Shown: positions 34,150-53,456 of the stretch, piece by piece | How positions within the stretch are numbered: position 1 is the stretch's first letter | How the letters are laid out: each line of letters opens with the position of its first letter | Assembly: GCF_031180885.1 (NCBI RefSeq) | Contig: NZ_JAPSLK010000015.1 | Location: forward strand, 62,001 to 126,000 | Direction of reading: 5' to 3' | DNA: 64,000 nucleotides | Origin: Saccharothrix sp. | GTDB taxonomy: Bacteria > Actinomycetota > Actinomycetes > Mycobacteriales > Pseudonocardiaceae | Translations under genes and position numbers: made by a program | Notes under the pieces: model-generated | What the model was told of the DNA's origin: nothing | Database searches by the model: none | Seen by the model: only the letters and a program-made list of their open reading frames with translations

Positions 34150-34332
34150 CCCGCCGTGCCCGAGGCGACTACGCAGCGTTACTACGGGATCCGGCTTCGA
34201 GTTGTTTTCCAAATGAGATCTCCACCCTAGTAACGGATCTGTGGAATAGGGCGACCTTTGGAGCAACAAGGTTGCACTACGGGGAGTAGTGACTGCCGCG
34301 CTACGGAGTGCGTTCGAGGAGATGAGTGGTCG
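34150..34332 (+). promoter_or_regulatory. Leader and promoter region of the giant secreted protein gene
   Basis: A 183-nt stretch that is AT-richer than its neighbours around 34195-34250, where a promoter is likely, although no clear -35/-10 pair is assigned. A small inverted repeat GCAAC-AAG-GTTGC lies at about 34263-34275. The SD is GAGGAG at about 34317-34322. No known riboswitch was recognised. Confidence 0.4.
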
Positions 34333-37300
34333 ATGGCGTCGCCGGTGAGACGTCTTGCAAGGACCCTGTGCGCTGTGCTCATGGTGACCGGATGTGTCAC
34401 GCCCCTTGTCCTCCTCAACGCCACGGTCGCGAACGCCGCGCCCTGTGACGTGCCGGTGGTCAACAAAGTCGCGTGCGAGAACACCAAACCGGGTACGCCC
34501 GACTGGCAGGTGACCTCGCGGGACGACTCGATCCTGGGTTACACCACCGACATCAGCACCACGCCGGGTGGCCAGGTCGCGTTCAAGATGCTGACCAACG
34601 CCTCGTCGTACACCATCGACATCTTCCGGCTGGGCTGGTACGGCGGCGTCGGCGCGCGCCAGGTCGACTCGGTCTCGCGCAACACCCCGCAGAACCAGCC
34701 GCCGTGCCTGCGCGACACCCCCAGCGCGCTCATCGACTGCGGCAACTGGGCCGTGTCGGTCACCTGGAACGTCCCCGTCGACGCGGTGTCGGGCATCTAC
34801 TACGCCCGCGTCACCCGCAACGACAACCAGCTCAAGAACGAGATCGTGTTCGTCGTCCGCGACGACACCAGCACGTCCAAGATCCTGTTCCAGACCTCGG
34901 ACTCCACCTGGGTGGCCTACAACCGCTACGGCGGCAACTCGCTGTACTTCGGCGACGGCCCCGGCCAGGGCGGCCAGGCCTACAAGGTCAGCTACAACCG
35001 CCCGTACACGGGCGGCGACGGCGACGAGAACTTCATCTTCAACGCCGAGTACCCGATGCTGCGGTTCCTGGAGCGCAACGGCTACGACCTGAGCTACACC
35101 ACCGACGTCGACAGCGCGCGCCGCGGCCACCTCATCAAGAACCACAAGGTGTTCATGGCCGTCGGCCACGACGAGTACTGGTCCAACGAGCAGCGCGCCA
35201 ACGTCGAGGCGGCCCGGGACGCGGGCGTGCACCTGGCGTTCCTCACCGGCAACGAGATCTTCTGGAAGACCCGCTGGGAGAAGAGCATCGACTCCTCCCA
35301 GACCGACTGGCGCACCATCGCGTGCTACAAGGAGACCAAGGGCACCCAGAACGACGGCCTCAACGACTGGACCGGCACGTGGCGCGACCCGCGCTACAGC
35401 CCGCCGCAGGACGGCGGCCGGCCGGAGAACGCCCTGCTGGGCAACATCTTCACCGTCAACGGCCGGCGCGACGACTCGCTGCAGGTCCCGGCCGAGTACG
35501 GCCGGATGCGGCTGTGGCGGCACACCTCGCTGCAGAACATGAGCAGCGGCAGCACCTACACGTTCCAGCCCGGCACGCTGGGCTACGAGTGGAACACCGT
35601 GGAGGACAACGGCTACCAGCCGCCGGGCGTCGGCCAGTTCTCCCGCACCACGGTCGCCATGCTCGACGGCCCGTACGTGCTGCAGAACCACGGCGACTAC
35701 TACACGCCGGACACCAAGACCCACGCCATCACCTACTACAAGCACTCCTCCGGCGCGTTGGTGTTCGGCGCGGGCACGGTGCAGTGGGCGTGGGGCGTGG
35801 ACGACGAGCACGCGTTCCTCACCAACACGCCGACCTCCGACATCCGGATGCAGCAGGCGACGGTGAACTTCCTGGCCGACATGGGCGTGCAGGCCACGAC
35901 CCTGATGCCGGGCCTGGTGCAGGCCACCGCGTCCACCGACACGGCGCCGCCGGTCGTCGCCTACACCACCGTCCCGCCGACCTCCACGGTCGGCCAGCCG
36001 TACACGTTCGCCGGCACCGTCGTCGACGTCGCGGGCCAGGTGACCGGCGTCGAGGTGTCCACCGACGGCGGCGTGCGTTGGCACCCGGCGGTGTGGCAGG
36101 CCGGGCAGAGCGCCTGGACCTACACCTACACGCCGTCCGCGTCCGGCCCCGCCCAGCTGCGGGTCCGCGCGGTGGACGACTCGCTGAACCTGTCCTCGCC
36201 CGCCACGGCCTCGCCCGGCGTCAACGCCCGGACCTGCCCGTGCGGCCTGTGGACGAACAACGACACCCCGAAGACGCCCGACATCCTCGACGGCTCCGCC
36301 CTCGAACTGGGTGTGAAGTGGCGCGCCAACACCGACGGGTACGTCCGCGGCGTCCGTTTCTACAAGGGGCCGAACAACACCGGCACGCACACCGGCACCC
36401 TGTGGACCGCCGGCGGCCAGCAGCTCGCGACCGGCACGTTCACCAACGAGACCGCGTCGGGCTGGCAGACCATGCTGTTCCCGGTGCCCGTCGCGGTCAC
36501 CGGCAACACCACCTACATCGTGTCGTACCTGTCGCCGACCGGGCACTTCTCGGTCGACACGGAGTACTTCAGCCGCTCCAGCCGCTACCTGGAGCCGCTG
36601 ACCGCGCCGCAGACCGGCGTGGACGGCCCGAACGGCGTGTTCCGCTCCGGCCCGGGCTTCCCGGACCGGAGCGCGCAGGACAGCAACTACTGGGTCGACG
36701 TGGTGTGGGCGCCGGACCCCGGCCCCGACACCCGCGCGCCCGAGCTGGTCGGCACCAACCCGTTGGCCAACGCGAACAGCGTCAGCCTCAACCCGACGCT
36801 GACCGCGACGTACGACGAGGCGGTCAACCCGAGCACGCTCCAGTTCACCCTGACCGGCCCCGGCGGCGCGATCGCCGGCACGTCCTCGGTCACCGGCAAC
36901 GGCAAGACCGCCCAGTTCACCCCGGACGCGGCCCTGGCCGCCGGCACCACCTACACCGCCTCGGTGAAGGTCAAGGACGCCGCCGGCAACGAGACCGTGC
37001 AGCACAACTGGTCCTTCACCACCGGCTACAACCGCCCCGCCACGTGCCCGTGCACGGTGTGGGACGACTTCGCCACGCCCGCGATCAACAGCGCCGACGA
37101 CAGCAACCCGGTCGAGCTGGGCGTGAAGGTCCGGTTCGACGGCAAGGGCGAGGTGCTGGGCGTCCGCTTCTACAAGGGCGCGGGCAACACCGGAACCCAC
37201 AAGGGTTCCCTGTGGTCCTCCACGGGACTCCTGCTGGCCACCGGCACGTTCAGCAACGAGACTTCCTCGGGCTGGCAGACGCTCAACTTCACCACTCCGG

Positions 37301-39150
37301 TGGTCGTGCAGGCCAACACCACCTACATCGTGTCGTACTACGCGCCCAACGGCCGGTACTCCGTGACGCCCGGCTACTTCAACGGGCAAAGCGCGAGCTA
37401 CGGCGCGATGCGGGCGCTGTCCAACGGCACCGATGGCCCCAACGGCGTCTACAAGTACGGCACCGGCGGCGGGTTCCCGACCTCGTCGTACAACGCGGCC
37501 AACTACTGGGTCGACGTCATCTACAAGAACGGCCTCAACGGCGACACCACGCCTCCGACGCTCGACACCCGCACGCCGGGACCGGACGCGACCGGCGTGG
37601 GCCTGAACTCGTCGCTCACGCTCGGCTTCTCCGAGGCGATGGACCCGGCCTCGACCCAGATCTGGCTGTCCGACCCGGGCGGCGCGAAGCTCTACGGCTC
37701 GGTCGCGCTCTCGGGTGACCAGAAGACCGTGACCTGGACGCCGAACGGCGCCCTGAAGCCCAACACCCGTTACACGGCAAGCGTTCTGCTCGCCGACGTC
37801 AACGGCAACGCGATGACGTCCACGGCGGTGTGGTCGTTCACCACGTCCACCACCGCGACCTGCCCGTGCTCGCTGTTCAGCACGGCGACCGTGCCGACCA
37901 CCACGTCGGCCGACGACAGCGGGTCCTACGAGCTGGGCGTGCGGTTCAGCCCGACGCAGAGCGGCCAGATCACCGGGGTCCGCTTCTACAAGGGCGAGGG
38001 CAACACCGGCACCCACACCGGTTCCCTGTGGTCCTCCGCGGGCGTCCGGTTGGCGACCGGCACGTTCAGCGGCGAAAGCGCCTCCGGTTGGCAGACCCTG
38101 ACCTTCTCCACACCGGTCACGGTCGCGCCGGGCCTGGTCTACACGGCGTCGTACTACGCGCCGAACGGCCACTACTCGATCGACCAGGGCTACTTCCAGG
38201 CGACCGGGGTCAACGCGCCGCCGCTGACCGCGCCGCAGACCGGCGACGGCAACCCCAACGGCGTGTTCATGCCGGGCGGCGGGTTCCCGACGATGTCCTA
38301 CCAGGGCAACAACTACTGGGTCGACGTCGTCTACACGCCCAACAGCGACACCACCCCGCCCGCGCACTCCGGCCACACGCCGTTGACCGACGCGGTGGAC
38401 GTCTCCCGGACCAGCCAGGTGACCGCGTCCTTCGACGAGCCGGTCGACACGACCAACTCGCAGTTCACGGTCAGCGACCCGGGCGGCGCCAAGCTGGACG
38501 GCACGGTGACCCTTTCGGGCGACCAGCGGACGCTCCTGTGGACCCCCGCCGCGCCCATGGCGGCCGGCACCCGGTACACCGCGAGCGTCCGGGCGGCCGA
38601 CACCGGCGGCAACATCATGGCCACGCCGGTCACCTGGTCGTTCACCGTCACCACGACGCAGACGTGCCCGTGCTCGCTGTTCAGCTCGGCGACCGTGCCG
38701 ACCACCACGTCGGCCGACGACACCGGGGCCTACGAGATGGGCGTCCGGTTCACACCTTCGGTCAACGGCCAGATCACCGGCGTGAAGTTCTACAAGGGCG
38801 CCGGCAACACCGGCACCCACACCGGCACCATCTGGTCGGCGGACGGCGTGGCGCTCAAGACCGGCACGTTCACCAACGAGACCGCGACCGGTTGGCAGAC
38901 GCTGACGTTCGACACCCCGCTGGCCGTCACGGCGGGCACCACGTACGTGGCCTCCTACACCGTGCCCAACGGCCGCTACTCGGTGAACCACGGCTACTTC
39001 GCGGGCTACACCGCGACCTCGCCACCGCTGTCCGCTCCGGCCACCGCCGAGGGCGCGCCCAACGGCCTGTACCGCGTGGGCAGCGGGTTCCCGACGAACA
39101 GCTACCAGGGCAACCACTACTGGGTCGACGTCGTCTTCACGACGAGCTGA
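34333..39150 (+). CDS. Giant secreted protein: N,N-dimethylformamidase-beta-like domain plus Ig-like and four DUF4082 repeats
   Basis: A 1605-residue exported protein. A signal peptide (MASPVRRLARTLCAVLMVTG to ATVANAA) is followed by an N,N-dimethylformamidase-beta-like region to about 530: FRLGWYGGVGARQV, NRYGGNSLYF, FLERNGYDLSYTTDVDS, VGHDEYWSNEQRANVEAARD and FLTGNEIFWKTRWE. An Ig-like domain spans about 535-630. Four DUF4082 modules begin at CPC motifs at about residues 635, 905, 1177 and 1445, each with RGVRFYKG or similar, NTGTHTG, ASGWQT and a NYWVDV ending. Ig-like Big_5 domains link them, so the period is about 270 residues. A carbohydrate- or surface-binding role for DUF4082 is a guess. 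Terminators on both sides and its place between two sugar operons suggest an independently regulated surface protein. Confidence 0.9.
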   Translation: MASPVRRLARTLCAVLMVTGCVTPLVLLNATVANAAPCDVPVVNKVACENTKPGTPDWQVTSRDDSILGYTTDISTTPGGQVAFKMLTNASSYTIDIFRLGWYGGVGARQVDSVSRNTPQNQPPCLRDTPSALIDCGNWAVSVTWNVPVDAVSGIYYARVTRNDNQLKNEIVFVVRDDTSTSKILFQTSDSTWVAYNRYGGNSLYFGDGPGQGGQAYKVSYNRPYTGGDGDENFIFNAEYPMLRFLERNGYDLSYTTDVDSARRGHLIKNHKVFMAVGHDEYWSNEQRANVEAARDAGVHLAFLTGNEIFWKTRWEKSIDSSQTDWRTIACYKETKGTQNDGLNDWTGTWRDPRYSPPQDGGRPENALLGNIFTVNGRRDDSLQVPAEYGRMRLWRHTSLQNMSSGSTYTFQPGTLGYEWNTVEDNGYQPPGVGQFSRTTVAMLDGPYVLQNHGDYYTPDTKTHAITYYKHSSGALVFGAGTVQWAWGVDDEHAFLTNTPTSDIRMQQATVNFLADMGVQATTLMPGLVQATASTDTAPPVVAYTTVPPTSTVGQPYTFAGTVVDVAGQVTGVEVSTDGGVRWHPAVWQAGQSAWTYTYTPSASGPAQLRVRAVDDSLNLSSPATASPGVNARTCPCGLWTNNDTPKTPDILDGSALELGVKWRANTDGYVRGVRFYKGPNNTGTHTGTLWTAGGQQLATGTFTNETASGWQTMLFPVPVAVTGNTTYIVSYLSPTGHFSVDTEYFSRSSRYLEPLTAPQTGVDGPNGVFRSGPGFPDRSAQDSNYWVDVVWAPDPGPDTRAPELVGTNPLANANSVSLNPTLTATYDEAVNPSTLQFTLTGPGGAIAGTSSVTGNGKTAQFTPDAALAAGTTYTASVKVKDAAGNETVQHNWSFTTGYNRPATCPCTVWDDFATPAINSADDSNPVELGVKVRFDGKGEVLGVRFYKGAGNTGTHKGSLWSSTGLLLATGTFSNETSSGWQTLNFTTPVVVQANTTYIVSYYAPNGRYSVTPGYFNGQSASYGAMRALSNGTDGPNGVYKYGTGGGFPTSSYNAANYWVDVIYKNGLNGDTTPPTLDTRTPGPDATGVGLNSSLTLGFSEAMDPASTQIWLSDPGGAKLYGSVALSGDQKTVTWTPNGALKPNTRYTASVLLADVNGNAMTSTAVWSFTTSTTATCPCSLFSTATVPTTTSADDSGSYELGVRFSPTQSGQITGVRFYKGEGNTGTHTGSLWSSAGVRLATGTFSGESASGWQTLTFSTPVTVAPGLVYTASYYAPNGHYSIDQGYFQATGVNAPPLTAPQTGDGNPNGVFMPGGGFPTMSYQGNNYWVDVVYTPNSDTTPPAHSGHTPLTDAVDVSRTSQVTASFDEPVDTTNSQFTVSDPGGAKLDGTVTLSGDQRTLLWTPAAPMAAGTRYTASVRAADTGGNIMATPVTWSFTVTTTQTCPCSLFSSATVPTTTSADDTGAYEMGVRFTPSVNGQITGVKFYKGAGNTGTHTGTIWSADGVALKTGTFTNETATGWQTLTFDTPLAVTAGTTYVASYTVPNGRYSVNHGYFAGYTATSPPLSAPATAEGAPNGLYRVGSGFPTNSYQGNHYWVDVVFTTS

Positions 39151-40950: not shown

Positions 40951-41504
40951 GCGTCTACGTCCACCCCAAGGGCTTGTGCGAGAGCGACCAGGTCGGCGAG
41001 GGCACCCGGGTGTGGGCTTTCGCGCACGTCCTCCCAGGCGCCCGAATCGGTCGTGACTGCAACATCTGCGACGGCGCTTTCGTCGAGGGCCGGGCAGTCC
41101 TGGGCGACCGCGTGACCGTCAAGAACGGGACCCTGGTCTTCGACGGCGTGATCTGCGAGGACGAGGTCTTCCTGGGCCCGAACGTCCTGTTCACCAACGA
41201 CCTCCGCCCCCGCGCCGCAATCCGCAAAACCGGCGACGAATTGCTCTCCACCGCCGTCCGTCGCGGCGCTTCCCTCGGCGCCGGCACGGTCGTCGTGTGC
41301 GGTGTGGAAATCGGCGAATACGCCTTCGCCGCCGCAGGCGCAGTAGTGACCCGAGACGTCCCCGCACACTCCTTCGTAGCCGGCAACCCCGCCACCCACA
41401 AGGGCTGGGTCTGCGCCTGCGGCCACCGCTTGGACAACTCGCTGACCTGCCCGGACTGCGGCAACCACTACACCGAGGGCGACAAGGGCCTGGTCCGAAC
41501 CTGA
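40947..41504 (+). CDS. Left-handed beta-helix sugar N-acetyltransferase with C-terminal zinc ribbon (WbpD/WlbB/QdtC-like)
   Basis: A 185-residue acyltransferase. Hexapeptide repeats run from VGEGTRVWAFAHVLPGARIG to VEIGEYAFAAAGAVVTRDVP and VAGNPATHKGWVCACG. VFTND-type text is VLFTNDLRPRAAI, a family hallmark, with the acceptor-side Asn and Asp. The last 30 residues add two CxxC pairs (CACGH and CPDCGNHY), a zinc-ribbon-like tail. WbpD/WlbB homologues commonly end with such a tail. It likely acetylates the 3-amino group produced by the preceding aminotransferase. It is followed by a repeat-rich region with no gene. Confidence 0.9.
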   Translation: MSVYVHPKGLCESDQVGEGTRVWAFAHVLPGARIGRDCNICDGAFVEGRAVLGDRVTVKNGTLVFDGVICEDEVFLGPNVLFTNDLRPRAAIRKTGDELLSTAVRRGASLGAGTVVVCGVEIGEYAFAAAGAVVTRDVPAHSFVAGNPATHKGWVCACGHRLDNSLTCPDCGNHYTEGDKGLVRT

Positions 41505-41516
41505 CCAACCCGGTCG

Positions 41517-41561
41517 CAGTCGCCGAGCGGGCAGTCGCCGAGCGGGCAGTCGCCGAGCGGG
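41517..41561. repeat. 15-bp tandem repeat, three copies
   Basis: Three perfect copies of CAGTCGCCGAGCGGG at 41517-41531, 41532-41546 and 41547-41561, with a fourth start (CAGTC) at 41562. A small stem TCCGC/GCGGA follows (about 41564-41577). It begins 12 nt after the acyltransferase stop. Confidence 0.9.
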
Positions 41562-41591
41562 CAGTCCGCCCGAGCGGACACACCTCAACTT

Positions 41592-41760
41592 GGGCTTCTT
41601 GCTTGTGTCATCCCCGTATGGCCCGCCCGAAGGGCTACCACAGATTTCCCGGGTGCAGCCGAAATTTTTTGTGAGGAGCGAGCAAAAAATTTTAGCGGCA
41701 CCCGGGAAATCTGCGGTTGGCTTTGCCGGGTCATGTGGGGATGGCACAAGCAAGAAGCCC
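41592..41760. repeat. 169-nt imperfect palindrome (long hairpin 1)
   Basis: Three perfect stem blocks can be read. GGGCTTCTTGCTTGTG (41592-41607) pairs with 41745-41760. CATCCCC (41609-41615) pairs with 41737-41743. CAGATTTCCCGGGTGC (41641-41656) pairs with 41698-41713. An inner AAATTTTTTG (41662-41671) pairs with 41683-41692 around an 11-nt loop. The AT-rich apex is unusual in this genome. The left arm contains CCGTATGGCCCGCCCGAAGG (41614-41633), shared with the palindrome at 51791. Confidence 0.92.
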
Positions 41761-41796
41761 TCGCAGTTGTAGTTGTGTCATCCTTGGCGGCTCGCC

Positions 41797-41980
41797 CGCC
41801 GGCGAGGCTCTTTTGATCTTTAAGAGTCACGCTGTCGCTCTCAAGCCCACGCTTCGCGTGTGTGGACGCAACGCGCTCCGCTTCCGCAAGCTCGAACGCG
41901 CTTCGCGCTCTTGAACGCGCTGACGCGCTCTCAAGCTCCAACGCGCTGCGCGCTCTCAAGATCAAAAGCGGCGCTCGCCG
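41797..41980. repeat. Repeat module 2 (copy 1): inverted GATC-centred arms around CTCTCAAG units
   Basis: The left arm CTTTTGATCTT (41810-41820) pairs perfectly with AAGATCAAAAG (41958-41968); flanking CGGCGAG and CTCGCCG extend it imperfectly. The interior holds repeated CGCGCTCTCAAG-like units and small hairpins such as CACGC-TTC-GCGTG. The first 24 nt (41797-41820) are identical to 51891-51914. Confidence 0.88.
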
Positions 41981-42002
41981 CGCGGCAGGCCCCCCGGGGG
42001 GT

Positions 42003-42150
42003 GGAAGGGCGTCGGTTCGTCCCCCGTACGGCCTGCCGGAGGCAACCACCCTTCGCCCTTCTTGGCAACCGGTGAAGCGTGGTTGCCAAGAAGGGCGAAG
42101 CGCGGTTGGGCTGCGCCCAGGCCGTACGGGGGACGAACCGAGGCCCTTCC
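42003..42150. repeat. 148-nt near-perfect palindrome (long hairpin 2)
   Basis: The outer stem, 42003-42035 with 42118-42150, is 33 bp with one mismatch; its inner 23 bp (42013-42035 with 42118-42140) are perfect. An inner perfect 20-bp stem, 42051-42070 with 42081-42100 (arm starts CTTCGCCCTTCTTGG), closes on a 10-nt loop. An asymmetric internal bulge lies between the stems. Core CCGTACGGCCTGCCGGAGG is related to the other palindromes. Confidence 0.94.
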
Positions 42151-42170
42151 TGTGGCTTGGCAAGCCCGGG

Positions 42171-42230
42171 CAAAAGCAGCGCCTGCGGCGCAAAAGCAGC
42201 CGCTACGGGGCAAAAGCGCGGGTCGGTGTG
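42171..42230. repeat. 20-bp-period repeat beginning CAAAAGC
   Basis: CAAAAGCAGC begins at 42171 and 42191 and CAAAAGCGCG at 42211, an exact 20-bp period with diverged second halves. It abuts the end of the convergent polymerase gene at 42243. Confidence 0.75.
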
Positions 42231-42242
42231 CGGCCGAAGCGG

Positions 42243-43586
42243 CTAGGCCGCTGGACCCGGCTCTGCCGACGACCTCTCCTCCCGGGCGATCCGCAGCATC
42301 GCTCCCGCCAACCCGATGTACGCGAACACCAGCCCGGTCGCCACCCCGAACCCCAGCAAGTCGAACGTGATCGACGCGATCCCACCCGCCAGCACGGCCG
42401 ACAGCACGCACGCCGCCAACCCCCGCAGGTGCTCGTCCTTGCTGATCATCCGCACCCGCACCACCGCGTACGCCGCCGCCAGGAACATCCCGATCAGCGC
42501 GAACAGCCCCAGGTACCCGTTCTCGATCAGCGTCAACAGGAACTGGTTGTCCAGGATCGTGTACTTCGTCGGCAGGAAGGTGCCGAAACCCCGGCCCAGC
42601 CACGGGTTCAGGTCGATCTGCTCGGCCGCCGCCGCGTAGTCCGCCGTCCTCGCTTTCACGCTCGGGTCGTCCTCGATGTTGGAGAACATGCCGCGCAGCG
42701 TGCCGAACAGGCCCGGCACCGCGACCGCCGCGCCGAGGAAGAAACCGCCGCCCACGACCGCCGCCGTGATGCGCTGCCGGCGCGGCAGGGTGATCACCAT
42801 GATGACCCCGGCGACCGTCATGCCGAGGATCGCGGTCCGGGACAGGGCGGTCATCGCGCCCAACCCCACCAAGGCCAAGCACAGCAGCCAACGCACGTAC
42901 GGCGTGCCCTCGTCCCGCGCTCGGAACACGTAATGCGCGCCCAACGGCACGGCCATCGCGCAGATCAGGCCGTACTCGATGGGGTGGTTGGTGGTGCCGG
43001 TCGGCCGGCGGAAGATCGAGCGCGACTCCATGACCGCGTAGCCGTTCTCCTGCGTCCGCAGGCCGGGGACGCTCACGTAGCTCGCCAGGTCCACGCCCAG
43101 CCCGAACTGGACCAGCCCGACGAACGCGATCAGCGCCGCGCAGCCGAGGATGAGCTTGAGCACCTTGTCCAGGCGTTCCTTGGTGCGGACGGCGTCGCAG
43201 ATGAAGACCGCGAGCGCGATGGTGGCGGTGATGCGGACGATGCTGGAGTCCGCCACGGTCAGCTCGTCGGTCGGCAACCACCGCCGCGTCGCCACGGCGT
43301 AGGTCGCCAGGTGGGCGGCCAGGTAGAGCCCGATCGCGAACCGGACGACGTTGCGGCCCTTGCCCATGCCGAGGGTGTCCACCATCTGCGCGGACAGCCA
43401 CAGCACGCCCAGCATCAGCGCCACGACGAGCGCGGGCGGCAGGGTCATCGGGACGAACGACAGGACCAGCCGGGCGGGGATGATCAGCAGGGCGAGGAGG
43501 TAGACGCAGACGAGCGTGGCCCCGTCCGCACGCTGCCGGACGTGCGCGCGCTGCGTGGTCAAGAGCCGTCGTCGTTGGTCGGCCAT
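42243..43586 (-). CDS. O-antigen ligase/polymerase-like membrane protein (Wzy type)
   Basis: A 447-residue polytopic protein with about 11-12 TM segments. A large extracytoplasmic loop near the end contains NPWLGRGFGTFLPTKYTIL followed by DNQFLLTLIENGYLGL, the typical Wzy_C/O-antigen ligase pattern. An earlier motif, FRRPTGTTNHPIEYGLICAM, carries the His and Glu also seen in these families. It probably polymerises lipid-linked repeat units outside the membrane. Its start overlaps the end of the Wzz-like gene by 28 nt, so both are co-transcribed on the minus strand, away from the first half of the locus. Confidence 0.88.
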   Translation of the reverse strand: MADQRRRLLTTQRAHVRQRADGATLVCVYLLALLIIPARLVLSFVPMTLPPALVVALMLGVLWLSAQMVDTLGMGKGRNVVRFAIGLYLAAHLATYAVATRRWLPTDELTVADSSIVRITATIALAVFICDAVRTKERLDKVLKLILGCAALIAFVGLVQFGLGVDLASYVSVPGLRTQENGYAVMESRSIFRRPTGTTNHPIEYGLICAMAVPLGAHYVFRARDEGTPYVRWLLCLALVGLGAMTALSRTAILGMTVAGVIMVITLPRRQRITAAVVGGGFFLGAAVAVPGLFGTLRGMFSNIEDDPSVKARTADYAAAAEQIDLNPWLGRGFGTFLPTKYTILDNQFLLTLIENGYLGLFALIGMFLAAAYAVVRVRMISKDEHLRGLAACVLSAVLAGGIASITFDLLGFGVATGLVFAYIGLAGAMLRIAREERSSAEPGPAA

Positions 43587-51681: not shown

Positions 51682-51700
51682 GCGCCGTCCTGCTTTGCGC

Positions 51701-51754
51701 CGCGCAGCGGCGCTTCGCCGCGCAGCGGCGCTTCGCCGCGCAGCGGCGCTTCGC
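51701..51754. repeat. 18-bp tandem repeat, three copies
   Basis: Three perfect copies of CGCGCAGCGGCGCTTCGC at 51701-51718, 51719-51736 and 51737-51754. Each unit is itself partly palindromic (GCGC-CGC type). It begins 20 nt after the lipoprotein stop. Confidence 0.92.
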
Positions 51755-51790
51755 CGCGCTCCGCGCGGCTGGCTGGCTCCAGTCACAGGC

Positions 51791-51866
51791 GGGCCTCGGT
51801 TCCCCCACCGTATGGCCTGCCCGAAGGTTGGCTCCGCCAGGCCGTGCGGTGGGGGAACCGACGCCC
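51791..51866. repeat. 76-nt palindrome of the same family as those near 42 kb
   Basis: CGGTTCCCCCACCG (51797-51810) pairs perfectly with 51847-51860; with flanks GGGCCT/ACGCCC the stem is 20 bp with one mismatch, and GGCCTG continues inside. Its core CCGTATGGCCTGCCCGAAGG (51808-51827) differs at one base in 20 from 41614-41633. Confidence 0.9.
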
Positions 51867-51890
51867 TTCCTCCCCCACTGGTGGTCTGTC

Positions 51891-52041
51891 CGCCGGCGAG
51901 GCTCTTTTGATCTTCAGACTCGCACATCCCTACACAATCTCGGACGGGCTCCGCGCTCTCACGTTCAGACGCGCTCCGGGCTCTCAAGCTCGGACGCGCT
52001 CAACCCTCTCAAGATCAAAGCGCCTGGCCGGCCGGCCGGCC
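51891..52041. repeat. Repeat module 2 (copy 2) with GGCC run
   Basis: The first 24 nt are identical to 41797-41820, including CTTTTGATCTT. The closing arm AAGATCAAAG lies at 52011-52020. In between are degenerate CGCTC..CTCTCAAG units. Four tandem GGCC units occupy 52026-52041. No gene is seen between 51682 and 52130. Confidence 0.85.
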
Positions 52042-52130
52042 GATGACTTCCAGCACAAGCCCTGGCTAACGGACGGGGCCGCTACGGCGATTGGGGCAAT
52101 GCGGGATCCCAGTCGACTTGGAGGCCGAAA

Positions 52131-53456
52131 GTGCCCACTACCGAACGGCTCAGACCGATCCGCAAGATGCCCGCGCTGTGCGGTGTCGCAGCGCTGGGCG
52201 CTGCCCTGCTCGTGCCGTCCGCGTCGGCTGTGGCCGCACCGACCCGGGTCCTCGGCTACATCGCCAACAACGGCGGAGGCGTGTCGGTCCTGGACACCTC
52301 CACCGACACCCTGACCAGCACCCTGTCCGACGCGGGCGGCGACTCGCCCTACGGTGTCGGCGTCGCCTTCGACGGTGCGCGCGGCTATGTGACGAACGTT
52401 CGCAACAACACCCTCACCGTCATCGACACGCCCACCAACACGATCGACGCCGCGGTGCCGGTCGGCGACGGGCCGGCGGGTGTGGTCGTGTCGCCCAGCG
52501 GCGGTCACGTGTACGTGTCGAACTACCGCGCCGGCACGGTGTCCGTGGTGGACGCCGCGACCCTCACCACGACCGCGACCGTCGACGTCGGCCCCAACGC
52601 CGACGGCGTCGCGATCACCCCGGACGGCAAGAAGCTGTTCGTGGCGCACGACGTGGTCGGCGCGGGCACGGTGTCCGTCGTGGACACCTTCACCATGACC
52701 GAGGTCGAGGAGATCCCGACCGGCAACACCCCGACCGCGGTGGCGGTGACGCCCGACGGCAGCCGGCTGTTGGTGGTCAACAAGTTCTCCAACAACGTGG
52801 CCGTGGTGGACGTGGCCTCCCACGCGGTGGTCGGGACGATCCCGGTCAGCTTCATCCCGCACGGCGTGGCCATCTCGCCGGACGGGACGCGGGCGTTCGT
52901 GACCAACAGCGAGGCCGACTCGCTGTCGGTGCTGGACATCCCGGCGATGGCGCCGCTCCTGGCGGTCCCGGTCGGCGACCGGCCCATCAGCGTGGCGCTC
53001 ACCCCGGACGGCTCCCGTGCGTACGTGACGAACTTCAACAGCAACTCGGTGTCCGTTGTGGACACCGCCACCCTGTCGGTGGTCAACACGATCGCGGTGG
53101 GCGTCAACCCGGTCGGCATCGCCATCCACGGCGTGCCGCCCGCGCCCACGAAGCTCGTCGCCGAGCACGCCACGCTCCAGGTGCGGCTGCTCGGGTTCAC
53201 CGTGCGCGGCATGGACGCCACGTTGACCGAGTCGCACACCGGGCGTCCGGTGGCCGGCAAGACCATCGAGTTCCGCACGGTGAAGGGACAGGCGCTGTGC
53301 AACGCCCTCACCAACGCGTCCGGCAAGGCCTCGTGCGACGCCAACGTGCCGTTGCTGGTGGGCCTGGCGACGTTGTTGCAGGGCTACACGGCGGCGTACC
53401 CGGGTGACATCACCCACGGCCCGTCGGTCGCCCACGGTTCGATCGGCTTGTTGTGA
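52131..53456 (+). CDS. Secreted YncE-like seven-bladed beta-propeller protein
   Basis: A 441-residue exported protein. The signal peptide ends about SASAVAAP. Blades repeat a motif of the YVTN type every 40-44 residues: GYIANNGGGVSVLDTSTDTL, YVTNVRNNTLTVIDTPTNTI, YVSNYRAGTVSVVDAATLTT, FVTNSEADSLSVLDIPAMAP and YVTNFNSNSVSVVDTATLSV. The last about 100 residues are an Ig-like domain (VRLLGFTVRGMDATLTESHT, CNALTNASGKASCDANVPLL) with a probable Cys pair. The GTG start follows GGAGGCCGAAA. Such propellers bind ligands or surfaces; no enzyme motif is seen. It lies just after the second repeat region. Confidence 0.85.
   Translation: MPTTERLRPIRKMPALCGVAALGAALLVPSASAVAAPTRVLGYIANNGGGVSVLDTSTDTLTSTLSDAGGDSPYGVGVAFDGARGYVTNVRNNTLTVIDTPTNTIDAAVPVGDGPAGVVVSPSGGHVYVSNYRAGTVSVVDAATLTTTATVDVGPNADGVAITPDGKKLFVAHDVVGAGTVSVVDTFTMTEVEEIPTGNTPTAVAVTPDGSRLLVVNKFSNNVAVVDVASHAVVGTIPVSFIPHGVAISPDGTRAFVTNSEADSLSVLDIPAMAPLLAVPVGDRPISVALTPDGSRAYVTNFNSNSVSVVDTATLSVVNTIAVGVNPVGIAIHGVPPAPTKLVAEHATLQVRLLGFTVRGMDATLTESHTGRPVAGKTIEFRTVKGQALCNALTNASGKASCDANVPLLVGLATLLQGYTAAYPGDITHGPSVAHGSIGLL

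Follow-up and report, generated by a model that had tools for sequence, protein, structure and literature searches.

What fills a convergent gene gap with hundreds of bases of repeats and giant hairpins? In the window, by which we mean the whole 64,000-nt stretch of a Saccharothrix contig that was analyzed, a plus-strand gene ending at 41504 and a minus-strand gene ending at 42243 enclose a gap of 738 bp. An earlier note, made from the letters alone, had described about 700 nt here as gene-free and built of repeats and hairpins, and we confirmed every module that it listed: the tandem 15-bp units, the palindromes of 169 and 148 nt, a GATC-armed module, and a 20-bp array. Positions 41,516-42,217 are one copy of an interspersed non-coding family in Saccharothrix. 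Judged by sequence, one unit present in two inverted copies, together with mini-hairpin arrays, accounts for the five modules (Table 1). The explanation that we favor, with slightly better than even confidence, is that the family is a spreading non-coding element for whose propagation a folded strand would matter, and that it may be tolerated by its hosts or useful to them as a convergent terminator.

Architecture of the locus

Both cloverleaf hairpins are built from nested arms. In HA, the outer arms (41592-41625 and 41727-41760) enclose inner arms at 41630-41671 and 41683-41724, so that on the plus strand an 81-nt inner stem is flanked on either side by a mini-hairpin and the whole is enclosed by the outer stem. 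In HB, the corresponding arms are 42003-42035 and 42118-42150, which are 97% complementary, and 42043-42070 and 42081-42108. A covariance model, R1, gave HA 84.8 bits on the plus strand and 60.2 on the minus strand; HB received 147.3 bits on the minus strand and 99.8 on the plus strand, scores that are high by construction because HB is among the 33 rows on which R1 was trained. The module with inverted CTTTTGATCTT...AAGATCAAAAG ends, which spans approximately 41810-41967 and had been singled out for its GATC arms, is the pair of T-tracts and their linker, since the two tracts converge around the mini-hairpins there. Other copies of the family have GCGC-type mini-hairpin arrays in place of the 15-bp array of the left tail.

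The predicted fold of 731 nt at this locus had an energy of -460.7 kcal/mol, compared with -336.3 (sd 9.3) in 20 dinucleotide shuffles (z = -13.4). Between 41450 and 42300, there were three sites with a GC-rich hairpin and a T-run, versus 1.1 (sd 1.1) in shuffles, and two of the three are the GGCGA hairpins. The same window holds a partial second element at about 51,690-52,040. Upstream of the sugar-biosynthesis-like genes that adjoin the element, a very long open frame with internal repeats (1630 aa) occupies 34258-39150.

Table 1. Features of the two elements in the window (strand "." where none is assigned)
Feature	Position	Strand	Remarks
Left tail, 15-bp tandem array	41516-41577	.	4.0 copies, 95% matches
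Cloverleaf hairpin HA, 169 nt	41592-41760	+	127-nt class between cores
Terminator-like hairpin, GGCGA loop (41791-41806), then T-tract GCTCTTTTGA	41791-41822	+	
Linker of imperfect mini-hairpin repeats (AACGCGCT...GCGCGCTCTCAAG) between two converging T-tracts	41820-41960	.	
Second terminator-like hairpin, GCGGCGAGCGCCGC then T-tract TTTTGATCTT	41958-41981 (hairpin 41981-41968)	-	
Cloverleaf hairpin HB, 148 nt	42003-42150	-	108-nt class between cores
Right tail, 20-bp array of mini-hairpins with GCAAAAGC spacers	42170-42217	.	
Second element, tail array	51698-51759	.	18-bp period, 3.4 copies
Second element, small cloverleaf without inner stem	51794-51863	+	R1 50.1 bits on +, 36.1 on -
Second element, GGCGA-loop hairpin and T-tract	51890-51914	+	Sequence inspection

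Anatomy of the unit

Across copies, the unit reads on one strand as a cloverleaf hairpin, a spacer, a conserved GG[CT]GG[CT]CTGCC, a terminator-like hairpin whose loop is GGCGA, and finally a T-tract. The cloverleaf is of near-fixed length and consists of an outer stem, two mini-hairpins, and a hypervariable inner stem. Within its conserved core (CCCGTAYGGCC / GGCCRTACGGG), the mini-hairpins measure 11 and 13 nt and the inner stem mostly 61-62 or 81 nt; among 68 hairpins, 33 belong to a 56-62 class and 35 to a 79-81 class. The small hairpin has a variable stem of 4 bp, and its GGCGA loop, like the loops of the mini-hairpins, stays constant while the stems vary.

Where present, the conserved stretch and the small hairpin always lie on the same side of the cloverleaf. 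Specifically, of 127 cloverleaf hairpins, 94 had the GGCGA hairpin 3' of them, one had it only 5', three had it on both sides, and 29 on neither. At least four T occurred in the 12-nt tail of 92 of 95 element hairpins, versus 161 of 1152 GGCGA hairpins in all fetched DNA, elements included. The earlier argument that the region is not explained by a terminator therefore holds for the giant hairpins, which far exceed one, but not for the unit as a whole, as each of them precedes a terminator-like hairpin with a T-tract. In all 36 doublets examined (10, 7, and 19 in three sets) the units converge, and a doublet is, as its sequence reads, two units converging on a short mini-hairpin linker.

By eye, GGCAGGCC in the 3' half of the cloverleaf is complementary to the GG[CT]CTGCC before the GGCGA hairpin (in the window, for example, at 41983-41990 and 42030-42040), so this half could pair alternatively with the downstream stretch, a possible switch. 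A divergent subfamily at L177-L181, in the relatives G011 and G004, has another mini-arm (TTGCCTGAAAGGAGGCC) and the same GGCGA terminator hairpin.

Copy number and distribution

The earlier note would have been refuted by modules unique to this locus, and they are not unique. A 731-nt query returned at least 127 matches in the window's own genome (G000, 9.46 Mb; other G numbers are relatives), with 40 of 200 candidates scored, and a first survey found a DNA match, some of them weak, in 24 of 60 relatives. With R1, 18 of 25 genomes of the genus matched and seven, namely G002, G003, G007, G008, G012, G014, and G024, had no match. The richest were G016 and G006 with at least 134 matches each, followed by G010 (131), G015 (125), G000 (121), G023 (96), G009 (74), G004 (44), G011 (42), and G013 (40); eight further genomes had 1-7. 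First-order Markov sequence gave no match to the hairpin profile. Two contiguous 400-kb stretches of G016 held 23 and 17 hairpins in 17 and 11 elements, and these 28 elements in 800 kb extrapolate to roughly 330 in its 9.41 Mb.

Beyond the genus, a sample of 150 genomes of the family Pseudonocardiaceae, run with stricter filters (E 1e-6), yielded matches in 23 genomes and 8 of 46 genera. Outside Saccharothrix, 18 genomes in seven other genera contained weaker relatives of the element, with up to 20 matches per genome (22 candidates scored); in their copies the GGCGA hairpin is retained, as are the arms CCTGGGCGCAGCCCA and TGCCTCYGGCAGG. A pattern drawn from the conserved module, which captures the Saccharothrix form only, gave 15 exact matches among 84,980 named species (S. 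obliqua 8, S. tamanrassetensis 7), in a collection that may omit records near the window's own genome. For ten of the best 30 element loci in G000 (L003, L004, L012, L013, L015, L017, L018, L023, L025, and L030), the contig ends less than 130 bases away, so copies probably break assemblies.

Turnover between species

Of 12 syntenic loci between contig C6 of G000 and 400 kb of G016, we read eight, including L008, and added the window locus. Seven of these nine were occupied in one species only, and two were occupied in both with different forms. At L008, 691 bp in the window's genome stand against 44 bp with a short hairpin in G016. At the window locus, read in four relatives, G016 has a single unit of another form, G010 and G015 a short hairpin, and G023 a short gap. 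At two convergent sites (loci B and C), native short hairpins persist beside the element. Locus H (L102, G000:C6 ~52,000-52,500) lacks, at the place of the element, part of a reductase-like gene that G016 possesses, which means that this insertion was not a clean one. Empty sites were compared at species distance, where junctions are too diverged to establish a target-site duplication or exact ends. G006 has near-identical copies whose flanking sequences are unrelated, a pattern that fits recent spread. The proposal of a mobile non-autonomous element is thus supported in part, by copies that are interspersed and absent at syntenic sites in relatives.

Gene context and orientation

Using a simple gene caller, and after two elements at stretch edges were dropped, we placed 47 of 89 elements in convergent gaps, 40 in tandem gaps, two in divergent gaps, and none inside genes; many of the stretches were centered on matches. 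Contiguous stretches only (two of G016 and one of G006) gave 19 convergent, 17 tandem, and no divergent sites among 36 elements, where convergent, tandem, and divergent gaps amount to 31.7, 91.1, and 37.7 kb. In the first of the G016 stretches, 13 of 34 convergent gaps of at least 50 bp contain an element.

Single units in tandem gaps run along the upstream gene in 12 cases and opposite to it in 13 (the first 12 counted by hand, the rest by script). This mixture counts against the units being simple terminators of the upstream gene. Assuming a terminus opposite dnaA, orientation relative to the replication fork was 22 with and 37 against in G016 (p = 0.07; 59 matches listed of at least 134) and 26 with and 22 against in G006 (p = 0.67; 48 listed of at least 134). 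A replication-strand bias, being inconsistent between the two genomes, was rejected.

Stem covariation and strand asymmetry

We aligned 33 hairpins of the shorter class with MAFFT, without reference to structure. Paired cells made up 96.2%, compared with 78.9% in shuffles and 34-46% when the structure was slid, and 33 of 59 pairs had changed on both sides. Hairpins entered the set through a filter that asked for 20 or more of the 24 standard outer pairs on the strand being scanned, which inflates the pairing percentages of the outer stem. Apart from its end motif, the inner stem played no part in this selection; in the same alignment its pairing reached 97.2%, and 16 of its 26 pairs had changed on both sides.

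Furthermore, the non-Watson-Crick pairs favor one strand. When read on the strand that runs from hairpin to terminator, the outer stem contained 89 G.U and 4 A.C, the 62-nt inner-stem class 45 and 6, and all helices together 176 and 53. Because G.T on the unit strand passes the filter as a pair, the selection works against the excess reported for the other strand. When orientation was taken from the GGCGA hairpin only, G.U:A.C was 76:5 in other genera together with G011 and G004, 38:15 in G016 and G006, and 95:6 in the set of 68 filter-picked hairpins. The suggestion of a structured RNA is supported in part, by the covariation of the stems and by an excess of G.U that is specific to one strand in most helices. 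This excess does not extend to the 81-nt inner-stem class (32 G.U, 38 A.C), read in a fixed register that misaligns an internal loop mid-stem. As gene orientation is mixed and fork orientation inconsistent, the asymmetry does not come from host transcription or replication alone. RNAalifold favors a form in which the two mini-arms are partly zipped into one long stem, and the four-way junction is thus one of two possible forms.

The kinds of change differ with distance. Between the nearest copies (three or fewer differences), 38 changes were pair-breaking, 6 wobble, and 3 compensated, compared with 39, 3, and 98 between distant copies (more than eight differences). That recent differences mostly break pairs and older ones are mostly compensated suggests that folding of one strand matters during propagation. 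Late purging of slightly harmful mutations could also produce this pattern.

Candidate enzymes and known families

A partner RAYT transposase, which the earlier note had proposed to look for, did not emerge. Its profile (PF01797) had no match in the six copy-rich genomes G000, G006, G009, G010, G015, and G016, in a search that matched 4 of 30 genomes and 5 of 14 controls (G023 and G074 lay outside it). The reverse transcriptase PF00078 had four matches in G000 and one each in G016, G010, and G023, and was present in 10 of 25 genomes in all; it was absent from the copy-rich G006, G015, and G009. TnpB (PF07282) was absent from the same six genomes as PF01797 and present once in G023 and in 8 of 25 genomes overall. 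We therefore rejected RVT_1 reverse transcriptase and TnpB as movers, both being patchy and absent from several copy-rich genomes. The largest number of PF07282 matches, 19, was in G014, yet that genome has no element match.

A known RNA family was ruled out at the Rfam threshold, with no match at gathering score in the whole window. Below that score, 41450-42300 had 24 matches, mostly to microRNA precursors (best MIR6457, 45.6 bits against 140), and one G074 copy had three (best mraW, 30.3 against 50). Plasmid or phage cargo was rejected, as blastn gave no match in a plasmid or phage collection. We found no description of the family in the open-access literature (PMC), including the available portions of PMC12306157 and PMC13155455; subscription papers were outside this scope. 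Saccharothrix and Kutzneria are not named in PMC11109978 or PMC8632094.

Explanations for the family

Sequence comparison establishes the family, its architecture, covariation, strand asymmetry, 3' position, and presence or absence among relatives. The explanation that we favor would add three steps to these observations. The element would spread by a mechanism that needs one strand folded, as RNA or single-stranded DNA; resting copies would drift, with the folding constraint acting at propagation; and copies would survive in 3' gaps, where they may be harmless or may stop transcription from both sides. An alternative that deserves serious weight, even if we consider it unlikely, is that these are bidirectional terminators or protectors of mRNA 3' ends that were selected by the host and multiplied by recombination instead of transposition. 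This would account for elements that sit after gene ends and are rare in divergent gaps, for the converging terminator-like hairpins with their T-tracts, and for the short hairpins that relatives have at L008 and the window locus. It fits poorly with the mixed orientation at tandem sites, the native hairpins beside the element at two loci, the mostly pair-breaking changes between nearest copies, and the near-identical copies with unrelated flanks. Somewhat more doubtful is the strict version of mobility, in which a convergent pair of cloverleaf and terminator is a purely structured single-strand mobile element, copied through folded RNA or single-stranded DNA by an enzyme other than a Y1 transposase, RVT_1, or TnpB, and settling at terminator sites until, in one genus, it occupies over one-third of the convergent gaps along a stretch that was sampled.

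The remaining alternatives are weaker. Template switching between arms (quasi-palindrome correction) could keep the palindromes intact without selection on a folded strand, and changes do affect both arms jointly, with transversion flips among them when near-identical copies are compared. No strand preference among non-Watson-Crick pairs would be expected from such correction, whereas G.U exceeds A.C on one strand in the outer and 62-nt inner stems and in all three sets oriented by the GGCGA hairpin; together with the constancy of the mini-hairpin and GGCGA loops against variable stems, this makes it improbable as the sole cause, and it may act in addition to a constraint on the folded strand. 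That the copies are chromosome-architecture sites, as had also been suggested, or replication-linked ones would suit the hundreds of them along the chromosome, but the inconsistent fork orientation and the strong turnover between species leave this very improbable. We give still less credence to REP/REPIN-type elements moved by a RAYT (a Y1 HUH transposase). The likeness to REPINs, extragenic palindromes in inverted doublets as described in part of PMC3116915, is real, but the units are far longer than REPs and the lack of PF01797 matches in the six copy-rich genomes searched largely refutes this route for present-day activity.

If the favored explanation is true, one spreading structured element has shaped hundreds of gene ends in these antibiotic-producing actinomycetes, and mobile repeats are linked to transcription termination. 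The family also offers several hundred stem sequences, independent of one another, as nature's record of one RNA-like fold. With the usual candidates absent, it raises the question of the enzyme by which such a foldback element would be moved.

Relation to known repeats

Small intergenic mobile repeats include MITEs, RUP, ERIC, and NEMIS. Like these, the Saccharothrix element is non-coding and interspersed, with long inverted repeats and presence or absence between relatives; it differs in its asymmetric unit with a terminator-like end, and PF01797, PF00078, and PF07282 identified no partner transposase. At the species distance of the empty sites compared, no target duplication was established. 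With REP and REPIN sequences, it shares an extragenic position, palindromes, high copy number, and inverted doublets alongside singles. In contrast to the short REP palindrome, its unit is a cloverleaf of 150-170 nt with a GGCGA-loop hairpin and strand-specific covariation, in genomes of which the six copy-rich ones searched yielded no Y1 transposase.

Bidirectional intrinsic terminators also lie between convergent genes and combine a GC-rich hairpin with a T-tract, whereas the Saccharothrix element comprises two converging units of several hundred bases that are multicopy and related in sequence. Paired DNA-uptake signals act as terminators, according to the portion of PMC1852404 available, and are likewise a repeated element in inverted pairs coupled to termination (terminator-like here, from sequence). 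Uptake signals are short, whereas each half of a Saccharothrix doublet is a complete cloverleaf followed by a terminator-like hairpin of its own. The long inverted repeats in the accessible part of PMC4210621 flank genomic islands. A different giant palindrome, without a match to the hairpin profile, lies in the window's own genome at L115:9876-10078 (GGGGGTTGTCTCGCG..., with its complement about 160 bases on).
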